Source of the DNA: Flavobacteriales bacterium
Lineage (GTDB): Bacteria > Bacteroidota > Bacteroidia > Flavobacteriales > Flavobacteriaceae
Reading direction: 5' to 3'
Assembly: GCA_011524915.1 (NCBI GenBank)
Contig: WTJH01000159.1
Location: 1 to 34,632, forward strand
DNA length: 34,632 nt
Shown here: one piece after another, positions 2,854 to 4,970 of the stretch
Layout of the letters: every line of letters starts with the position of its first letter
How positions within the stretch are numbered: the first letter of the stretch is position 1
Program-made: the position numbers and the translations under genes
Notes under the pieces: model-generated
Told to the model about the DNA's origin: nothing
Databases searched by the model: none
The model's input: only the letters and a program-made list of their open reading frames with translations

Positions 2854-3513
2854 ATGAACGCAAAGGCAAAAAAGATCATCGTTTTAGGAACCTTGTTTTT
2901 TTTGCCTTTGTTCGTTTATATGTTTTTTGCTTCCGGCAAAAACAACTTTGCTCGACTTCCCATATTAACTGAAAATATTGCCGAGTTCGAAGGATTCACC
3001 TCTACCGATCAAATCCCCCAATTAAAAGATCAGATCACCATACTTGGTTTTTGGGGCAATCGATTGGATTTAAAAAAAGCAGAAGCCCTGAATTTGAATG
3101 AAAAGATTTACAAACGCTTTTATCAATTTCAGGATTTTCAGTTCGTCTTCCTCGCCCAAGAAGGTCAGCAAGCTGCCGTAGATAGCTTACGCTATAAACT
3201 ACAGACAGGTGCTGGAACAGATTTGGAAAAGTGGCATGTCATATATGGAGATTCACTTCAAATAACTGAGCAGTTTAAAAGCTTAGGAACACCTTTTCAA
3301 TTATCCGAAAATCTGAGTAGCCCTTATGTTTTTATCATTGATAAAAATCGAGCACTTCGGGGGCGCACTCAAGACAAAGATTTAGATACGCTTTGGGGGG
3401 TCAACGCCCAATCCGTTGCTCAAATCCATAAAAAAATGGTAGACGATGTTAAAGTTATTTTGGCAGAATACCGTTTGGCTCTTAAGAAATACAATTCTGA
3501 CCGCGCAAAATAA
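2854..3513 (+). CDS. SCO-like membrane-anchored protein with no cysteines
   Basis: Protein of 219 residues with one N-terminal membrane helix (about 8-26) and a periplasmic domain. Its layout parallels the SCO protein encoded next: a strand leading to GFWGNR (65-70) where SCO has its CxxxC loop, a long helix, a second strand FQFVFLAQEG, and a late SPYVFIIDKNRALRGR segment matching the SCO stretch with the copper-binding His. Here both cysteines and that His are missing; the whole protein has no cysteine. I infer a thioredoxin-like fold that has lost copper chemistry, acting perhaps as a structural assembly partner. Similar uncharacterised proteins sit in oxidase clusters of related bacteria (recalled). 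Function unproven. Confidence 0.85.
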   Translation: MNAKAKKIIVLGTLFFLPLFVYMFFASGKNNFARLPILTENIAEFEGFTSTDQIPQLKDQITILGFWGNRLDLKKAEALNLNEKIYKRFYQFQDFQFVFLAQEGQQAAVDSLRYKLQTGAGTDLEKWHVIYGDSLQITEQFKSLGTPFQLSENLSSPYVFIIDKNRALRGRTQDKDLDTLWGVNAQSVAQIHKKMVDDVKVILAEYRLALKKYNSDRAK

Positions 3514-3518
3514 AGGCT

Positions 3519-4217
3519 ATGAAGTTTTCTTCAAAGTACGCAGGAGTTCTACTCATCATTATCGTTTTTGGCTATTTATTTATCCCTAAGATTATAAATC
3601 GTGTTCAGCGCGAGGCTGTCGTCGATAGTAGCCGGTCCGTAGAGGCAAAGCCCTTGTCTTATCTCAATATTAACGGAGAAGCTAAAAAAGTCCCCGAATT
3701 TTTAATGCTTAATCAAGACTCTCTCTGGATAGGAGAGTCCGATTTTAAAAACAAAGTATGGGTTGTTGAGTTTTTCTTTACGCGCTGTCCCAGTATTTGC
3801 CCCATCATGAATAAAAACATGAAACGCATCGAGGAGCAATTGGGCAGTCAACCCAATTTTGGAATTGCTTCCTTTTCGATAGATCCCAACTACGACCAGC
3901 CATCCATTCTAAAAGCGTATGCAGAAGTTTATGAGGTCGAAAATCCCAATTGGCATTTTCTAACGGGCCCTTTGGAGACCGTTCATGCATTAGCGAATCA
4001 GGGATTTAACATTTTTGCAGGGATCAATCCGGCTGTTGCGGGCGGTTTTGAGCATCAGGGCTACTTTGCACTGATCGATAAAAAAGGTTATTTTAGATCC
4101 CGTACCGATGCCTATGGCAATCCTGTGGTCTATTATTCGGGTTTAGACGATGATCAAGGAAACGCCCCTGAAGTTGATGCGCTTATCGAAGATATTGAAC
4201 TATTGTTGAAGGAATAA
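3519..4217 (+). CDS. SCO1/SenC copper chaperone for cytochrome oxidase
   Basis: Delivers copper to, or reduces, the CuA site of cytochrome c oxidase subunit II on the outer face of the inner membrane. The 232-residue protein has one N-terminal anchor helix (about 8-23), then a thioredoxin-like domain with the copper-binding motif FTRCPSICP (Cys90 and Cys94) and the third ligand His179 in GFEHQGYF, at the spacing expected for SCO. DPNYDQP (122-128) is the usual family segment. It follows the cysteine-free SCO-like gene by five bases and precedes DUF420, consistent with an oxidase assembly operon. All three metal ligands are present, so it should be functional. Confidence 0.95.
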   Translation: MKFSSKYAGVLLIIIVFGYLFIPKIINRVQREAVVDSSRSVEAKPLSYLNINGEAKKVPEFLMLNQDSLWIGESDFKNKVWVVEFFFTRCPSICPIMNKNMKRIEEQLGSQPNFGIASFSIDPNYDQPSILKAYAEVYEVENPNWHFLTGPLETVHALANQGFNIFAGINPAVAGGFEHQGYFALIDKKGYFRSRTDAYGNPVVYYSGLDDDQGNAPEVDALIEDIELLLKE

Positions 4218-4228
4218 AAATCACTGCT

Positions 4229-4756
4229 ATGGAAAAATCACCTGTTAAAAAATTTCGCCCAGCCATTATTGCCGTATCTGTCGTCGTCCCTTTAGTTGTG
4301 GCTGTTTTATTTACGATTCGAATTCCCAATGTTGAGGCACTTTCATTTTTACCACCGGTATATGCTTGCATCAATGCATTGACAGCTATTATCTTAGTTT
4401 TTGCTTTATACGCCATAAAAAATAATAACGTACTCTTACACGAACAATTGATGAAAACCTCAATTGCTTTGTCGCTTATGTTTTTGGTTATGTATGTGGC
4501 CTATCATATGACTTCGGATCCAACCCCCTATGGAGGAGAAGGATGGAAAAGACCCCTGTATTATTTTATTTTAGTAAGTCATGTTTTGTTATCCATTGGT
4601 ATTATTCCTATGGTACTGATCACCTATGTACGGGCCATTGCTAAATTATTCGAAGATCATAAAAAGATTGCCCGTATCACCTTCCCAATCTGGTTGTATA
4701 TCGCCATTTCTGGCGTCATCGTTTATCTGATGATTTCACCCTATTATGCTGCCTAA
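4229..4756 (+). CDS. DUF420 family membrane protein (oxidase-linked)
   Basis: Integral membrane protein of 175 residues with about five helices (12-30, 43-63, 76-93, 109-133 and 151-170). It matches DUF420, a family of unknown biochemical role often found beside cytochrome oxidase and SCO genes. Conserved-looking histidines sit near helix ends (His71, His93, His118, His144), which could bind heme or metal; this is inference only. The Gly-rich DPTPYGGEGWKRPLYY loop between helices three and four is family-like. The last 11 bases overlap the next small gene, so the two are probably co-expressed with the oxidase cluster. Name is secure; function is not known. Confidence 0.88.
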   Translation: MEKSPVKKFRPAIIAVSVVVPLVVAVLFTIRIPNVEALSFLPPVYACINALTAIILVFALYAIKNNNVLLHEQLMKTSIALSLMFLVMYVAYHMTSDPTPYGGEGWKRPLYYFILVSHVLLSIGIIPMVLITYVRAIAKLFEDHKKIARITFPIWLYIAISGVIVYLMISPYYAA

Positions 4757-4970
4757 GTATTTTATAGCATTCGTTCTTTTATTGTGTTTTGCTTGGGTAC
4801 TGCCTGTGGAGGCTCAATGCTCCATGTGTAGAGCTGTTCTAGAATCTGAAGAAGGACAAGCCACAGCCCGAGGAATCAACAATGGGATTTTGTATCTAAT
4901 GGCAGTTCCCTACATACTCGTAGCTTTTGTTGGTTGGAGAATATTTAAAATATTCCAGAAAAAAGAATAA
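4746..4970 (+). CDS. Small exported CxxC membrane protein of oxidase cluster
   Basis: Small protein of 74 residues. It starts with a hydrophobic signal (about 4-20) ending in a plausible signal peptidase site after VEA, followed at once by QCSMC (Cys25 and Cys28), then a polar stretch and one C-terminal helix (about 48-68) with a short basic cytoplasmic tail. A CxxC pair near the membrane surface suggests redox or copper handling for oxidase assembly, fitting its position after SCO and DUF420, but no function is shown. The gene overlaps DUF420 by 11 bases. The cysteine is not preceded by a good lipobox, so I do not call it a lipoprotein. Confidence 0.8.
   Translation: MLPKYFIAFVLLLCFAWVLPVEAQCSMCRAVLESEEGQATARGINNGILYLMAVPYILVAFVGWRIFKIFQKKE

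Follow-up and report, generated by a model that had tools for sequence, protein, structure and literature searches.

A ligand-free SCO-like protein next to a complete SCO in the cytochrome oxidase operon of Flavobacteriaceae, and a possible division of one chaperone between two genes

Organization of the locus

The window, i.e. the whole stretch of 34,632 nucleotides that was analyzed, carries close to its start an operon in the order UbiA-type protein, two subunit III-type proteins, COX4, a ligand-free SCO-like protein (hereafter F), a complete SCO (hereafter S), a DUF420 protein and a 74-residue protein. F ends 5 bp upstream of the S gene. The genes for COX2 and COX1 adjoin one another elsewhere in the same genome. 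The features are the following, all on the forward strand:

6 to 851, forward: UbiA family protein (PF01040), presumably a heme O synthase, the type being assigned by context
848 to 1417, forward: second subunit III-type protein (PF00510)
1460 to 2440, forward: cytochrome oxidase subunit III, long form (PF00510)
2443 to 2826, forward: oxidase subunit IV, COX4_pro (PF03626, E 6.1e-13), start taken at 2443
2854 to 3513, forward: F, SCO-like and ligand-free, 219 aa (open reading frame, family alignment, SCO profile homology, structure model)
2860 to 2934, forward: anchor helix of F, a predicted membrane helix, residues 3-27, with invariant Pro18 (DSSP on the model; conservation)
3061 to 3075, forward: position of the lost CxxxC in F, a gap after residue 70 and Lys at residue 74 (alignment)
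3316 to 3318, forward: position of the lost SCO histidine in F, now Ser155 (alignment)
3415 to 3507, forward: long C-terminal helix of F, residues 188-218, with the ancestral tail DDVKVILAEYR..KK (DSSP on the model; tail comparison)
3519 to 4217, forward: S, active SCO copper chaperone, 232 aa, without an AEY tail and with residues 217-231 as its last helix (PF02630, E 6e-24; model of S)
3786 to 3800, forward: CxxxC of S, CPSIC, residues 90-94 (alignment)
4053 to 4055, forward: ligand histidine H179 of S (alignment)
4229 to 4756, forward: DUF420 membrane protein (PF04238, E 1.7e-42)
4746 to 4970, forward: 74-aa protein, conserved in the operon, no family assigned (Pfam search; synteny)

The subunit III encoded at 1460-2440 has a long insert, and Pfam COX3 covers only residues 258-325 of its 326. 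The 74-aa protein carries CSMC near its start, closes nearly all of these operons and has no Pfam match over the cut-off. A scan for promoters and terminators in the window gave nothing above chance.

F is a descendant of SCO proteins

The initial annotation had taken F, by eye, for a parallel of S in anchor, strand order and C-terminal segment. BLASTP between F and S revealed no similarity (best E 4.6), so the parallel could have been chance; the kinship itself emerged from profiles, as hhalign of 39 F members against 23 SCOs gave a probability of 99.6% (E 1.2e-23, 197 columns). Against single operon SCOs from other families of the order of the window (group O, 19 loci) the F profile reached E 6.7e-37 with 23% identity over 220 columns, anchor and tail included, compared with 9.5e-19 and 13% identity against S. 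By sequence, F thus appears nearer to the undivided operon SCOs than to the S adjoining it. F itself matched no Pfam or NCBIfam model at E 1, and SCO1-SenC was absent among the 25 Pfam families listed for 39 F members. Another Pfam identity was considered and rejected, the matches being weak and scattered (Thioredoxin_8 in 3/39, best E 0.0013; Redoxin in 4/39, best E 0.0053). Sequence searches of the PDB with F alone and with the F profile returned chance matches only.

The AlphaFold2 model of F (mean pLDDT 94.5, pTM 0.85) shows a predicted single N-terminal anchor (hydrophobic helix 3-27), a thioredoxin-like core, as had been anticipated, and a last helix of 31 residues (188-218). In VIA-align the two best solved structures were SCO proteins (4hde, Z 15.4, 153 residues aligned, 2.6 A; 1xzo_A, Z 14.2, 153 residues), followed at Z 12.9 or below by thiol-disulfide proteins, peroxiredoxins, human SCO1 (12.4) and yeast Sco1 (12.3). 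Foldseek, ordered by E-value, placed aq_2194 of Aquifex and ResA above BsSco and on its own would not point to SCO specifically. The fit of peroxiredoxins and ResA-type proteins to the fold of F (Z 11-13; Foldseek) would agree with another descent, from proteins of thioredoxin or peroxiredoxin fold, and with a chance location in the operon; given that the best VIA-align matches are SCOs and that the profile match to the operon SCOs extends through anchor and tail, this origin is scarcely credible. Taken together, the profiles and the fold of the confident model show that F descends from SCO.

The copper ligands are missing from F and complete in S

As the initial annotation stated, the 219-residue product of the open reading frame contains no cysteine; residues 159-171 read VFIIDKNRALRGR. 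In the joint alignment, the ligand columns of window F hold a gap (first Cys), Lys74 (second Cys) and Ser155 (His). Both Cys columns are Cys in 40/40 S, 19/19 group O SCOs, 13/13 single operon SCOs from other orders (group C) and 16/16 other genomic SCOs, compared with Cys at either column in 0/41 F. All of these SCOs have the ligand histidine, as does 1/41 F; Ser predominates at this column in F, which bears out the reported lack of the SCO histidine. The absence of cysteine holds for the ligand columns throughout F, while total absence is not family-wide: among the named loci, which are the best 80 of at least 436 stretches confirmed by tblastn, F is free of Cys in 69 and has a CxxxC in none. 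Some F branches carry Cys outside the ligand columns, often near residue 194. The description of the neighbor as a complete SCO was correct (PF02630, E 6e-24), and C90, C94 and H179 of S are invariant across 23 SCOs.

Copper binding by F would not be expected, since the ligands are missing. F shares fold, membrane anchor, length, the IDK..LR region and the link to oxidase genes with SCO1/SenC (PF02630) and differs from it in lacking CxxxC and the His ligand and in escaping the Pfam model. A review of bacterial oxidase assembly characterizes Sco by the motif CXXXCXnH (PMC9145763); its main text contains no word beginning with Flavobacter or Bacteroid. Despite its SCO descent F is not filed here as an SCO chaperone, because it lacks the defining ligands, and it may work like half an SCO.

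The known precedent of a ligand-less SCO is from plants. Arabidopsis has a complete SCO, HCC1, and a second homologue, HCC2, that lacks the Cu-binding Cys and His; COX activity is normal in the HCC2 knockout, and a role in stress was proposed (PMC3971200). HCC2 and F are both ligand-less SCO homologues next to a complete SCO; HCC2, however, is cysteine-rich and dispensable for COX activity, while F is cysteine-poor, bacterial and located in an oxidase operon. Ligand loss in the two is assumed to be independent. By analogy with HCC2, F might be a regulator or stress protein that departed from copper assembly. This appears distinctly unlikely, as the cysteine-free F of the window and of 69 of the best 80 of at least 436 loci leaves no room for thiol chemistry, and F has remained in the oxidase operon. 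In openly licensed PMC papers we found no report of a bacterial ligand-less SCO, although the genome survey of Banci et al. 2007 may mention such sequences.

F is conserved in the oxidase operon under purifying selection

A match to F at E 0.001 was obtained in 44/60 related genomes, 36/37 within the family of the window (Flavobacteriaceae). Among the eight matching genomes outside this family, three have F (G045, G047 and G048) and five a single operon SCO; F is also present in G059. In an order-wide draw 179/296 genomes matched the F profile, single SCOs included, and 49/50 listed genomes of the family of the window did so at E 2.6e-65 or better, the family totals referring to listed genomes and the 97 genomes without a match being unlisted. 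The best 80 of at least 436 loci belong to Maribacter, Zobellia, Muricauda, Cellulophaga, Arenibacter and many marine Flavobacteriaceae.

That F is kept beside an active SCO, as had been proposed from the window, is general: S directly follows F in 78 of these best 80 loci and the remaining two are contig ends. COX4 lies within 200 bp upstream of F in 77 of the same best 80 of at least 436; it is 1.3 and 4.4 kb upstream in two others and was not seen in one (L119). In G016 (L017, L184) the operon is dispersed: F is retained alone beside what by eye is an ABC exporter, and SCO, DUF420 and the 74-aa gene lie away from it. In G230 (L136), a listed genome of the same family, a transitional ligand-free SCO occupies the position between COX4 and the gene for the 74-aa protein, and a complete SCO lies behind it; the ligand-free copy is more SCO-like, scoring 66 bits against SCO and 46 bits against F.

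COX2 was found in 34/37 genomes of the family and in 15/23 others. Outside the family F occurs in 4/15 COX2-bearing genomes and is missing from 11/15, and therefore CuA assembly does not generally require F. G023, which lacks F, also lacks matches to PF02630 and PF00116 (SCO and COX2); G002 and G025 have F without a COX2 match, the COX2 model being weak here (most E-values near 1e-5).

In a class-wide draw 25/295 genomes matched at E 1e-20 or better, nine from the family of the window and 16 others. Ligand-free SCOs in other orders of the class were sought and rejected: at this threshold, and with G476, G480, G509 and G532 set aside, the 13 loci from 12 of the 16 non-family genomes all encode CxxxC SCOs, and no second SCO-like open reading frame was detected in their stretches.

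Median dN/dS values from close pairs with dS above 0.1 were 0.095 for F (45 pairs), 0.084 for S (44), 0.069 for DUF420 (42) and 0.033 for COX4 (44). F is conserved under purifying selection. A decaying SCO relic, which the loss of all ligands might bring to mind, is hardly to be reconciled with a dN/dS so near that of the active SCO and with the presence of F in 36/37 genomes of the family, and we regard it as very improbable. Synteny and selection would be compatible with any oxidase-related role, and a non-catalytic role in oxidase assembly, as first proposed, would fit the operon and the joint absence of F, SCO and COX2 in G023.

Anchor, core and tail of the undivided SCO are divided between F and S

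In the F-less genomes that were read, the operon position is occupied by a single SCO (19 loci O, 13 loci C). These 32 undivided SCOs unite a copper site, an F-like anchor and an AEY tail in one protein; they share operon place, anchor and tail with F and differ from it in having kept both Cys and the His (32/32). In the anchor zone F is 13% identical to S, 28% to O and 35% to C, and S is 16% identical to O and 18% to C. In the core zone identity to O and C is 17-18% for F and 37-47% for S. At the AEY column Tyr is found in 37/41 F and 31/32 undivided SCOs (the other has Phe) and in 0/40 S, with a median of 14 (F), 12 (O), 16 (C) and 0 (S) residues after it. The final helix accordingly has 31 residues in the model of F and 15 (217-231, pLDDT 91.6) in that of S. 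The tail pattern misses 4/41 F and 5/19 O, the NF..L pattern 6/41 F and 4/19 O; neither matches any of the 40 S. Up to its truncation, the tail zone of S shows 35-36% identity to C and O. The difference between the anchors is a matter of degree, because 31/40 S also carry Pro at the Pro18 column.

Of the parallels drawn in the initial annotation, that of the anchor with S did not hold: the F anchor is closer to that of single operon SCOs elsewhere. The AEY tail is kept in F and missing in S. The anchor and tail that F retained and S did not keep had been overlooked, and are the more telling feature.

Conservation within each protein follows the same division. Identity within F (36 of the family of the window) is 48% in the anchor, 55% in the tail and 33-39% in the core; within S (35) it is 55-59% in the core, 56% in the tail and 47% in the anchor. 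From these alignments the constraint is reversed as well, F being more alike in tail and anchor than in the core. As judged by sequence, F retains anchor and tail with the copper site gone; in S the copper site is preserved, the tail is missing and the anchor differs. This suggests a chaperone that was split, one half for docking and the other for carrying the metal.

Origin of F and S

A 73-row tree recovers F as monophyletic (98/99), the transitional copy of G230 and family f13 included; its joining point is not firm because the F branches are long. A second tree, of 65 rows, omitted F as well as L159_X (dropped for its long branch in the 73-row tree) and the L136 rows. There S falls within the operon-SCO clade (100/100), separate from eleven other genomic SCOs, and clusters with single SCOs of its own order (98/90). 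The position of S inside this clade fits duplication within the operon followed by reciprocal loss. The best explanation for F is a degenerated, constrained SCO paralogue that arose by duplication of the single operon SCO. The active SCOs of f13 are separate from the other S in both trees and may have a different origin or represent a later replacement. L157 and L160, from family f5 (G040 and G053, no COX2 match), carry SCOs inside the S clade, as if retained or transferred after loss of the oxidase.

A possible two-protein SCO

To our knowledge, docking or positioning and copper handling are joined in every SCO described so far. In Paracoccus (ScoA/ScoB) and in humans (SCO1/SCO2), which like the genomes studied here have two SCO paralogues per organism, both copies keep the ligands, in contrast to the ligand-free F. 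The functions of ScoA and ScoB overlap (PMC9145763). Whether SCO serves CuA by transferring copper or by reducing the thiols of subunit II is described as still debated (PMC3971200).

With the balance about even, we infer that F and S together serve CuA assembly as a two-protein SCO in which the metal-free F provides the docking. Through its anchor and tail, F would occupy the site on the nascent oxidase where the old SCO sat (on subunit II, or on subunits III or IV, whose genes are neighbors of F), and the thioredoxin-like domain of F would contact subunit II or S. S would thereby be enabled to deliver copper or reducing equivalents, and F and S would jointly perform the task of one SCO elsewhere. 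The wider proposal, that in Flavobacteriaceae and a few neighboring families SCO was split by reciprocal loss into two obligate partners, both needed for CuA assembly, is more tentative, and we put it forward as a possibility that falls somewhat short of probable.

The main rival of a docking role is a lasting structural one: F, a single-helix protein with a periplasmic domain, would have lost copper and then become an accessory subunit that stays in the mature aa3 oxidase or in the supercomplex which this oxidase forms with alternative complex III. The place of F directly after COX4, the conservation of its anchor and tail and the separate location of COX2 and COX1 would agree with this, as would the Flavobacterium johnsoniae oxidase, which forms a supercomplex with alternative complex III and was isolated as such (PMC8552683, PMC8361435). 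No PDB chain resembles F, which does not decide the matter because the PDB also holds no close relative of this subunit III (best E 1.6e-12, residues 258-325 only). An argument against a structural subunit is that SCOs are assembly factors, and the undivided SCO, which shares anchor and tail with F, is one of that family; overall, we consider a structural subunit rather unlikely.

Beyond the precedent of plant HCC2, what is new is the division of the anchor and tail of an undivided SCO and its copper site between F and S. A natural pair of genes that separates the metal site from the presumed docking elements would allow the two functions to be removed singly. The F family comprises several hundred genes (at least 436 stretches), is unnamed in Pfam and NCBIfam and belongs to a respiratory operon of a large bacterial family.

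A degenerate CuA site where F occurs was considered and ruled out, as COX2 keeps CNKICGxxHYNM with and without F (14 genomes). The usual motif of the CuA loop is CSEICG; Lys stands in place of Glu in all 14 genomes examined (L141-L154).
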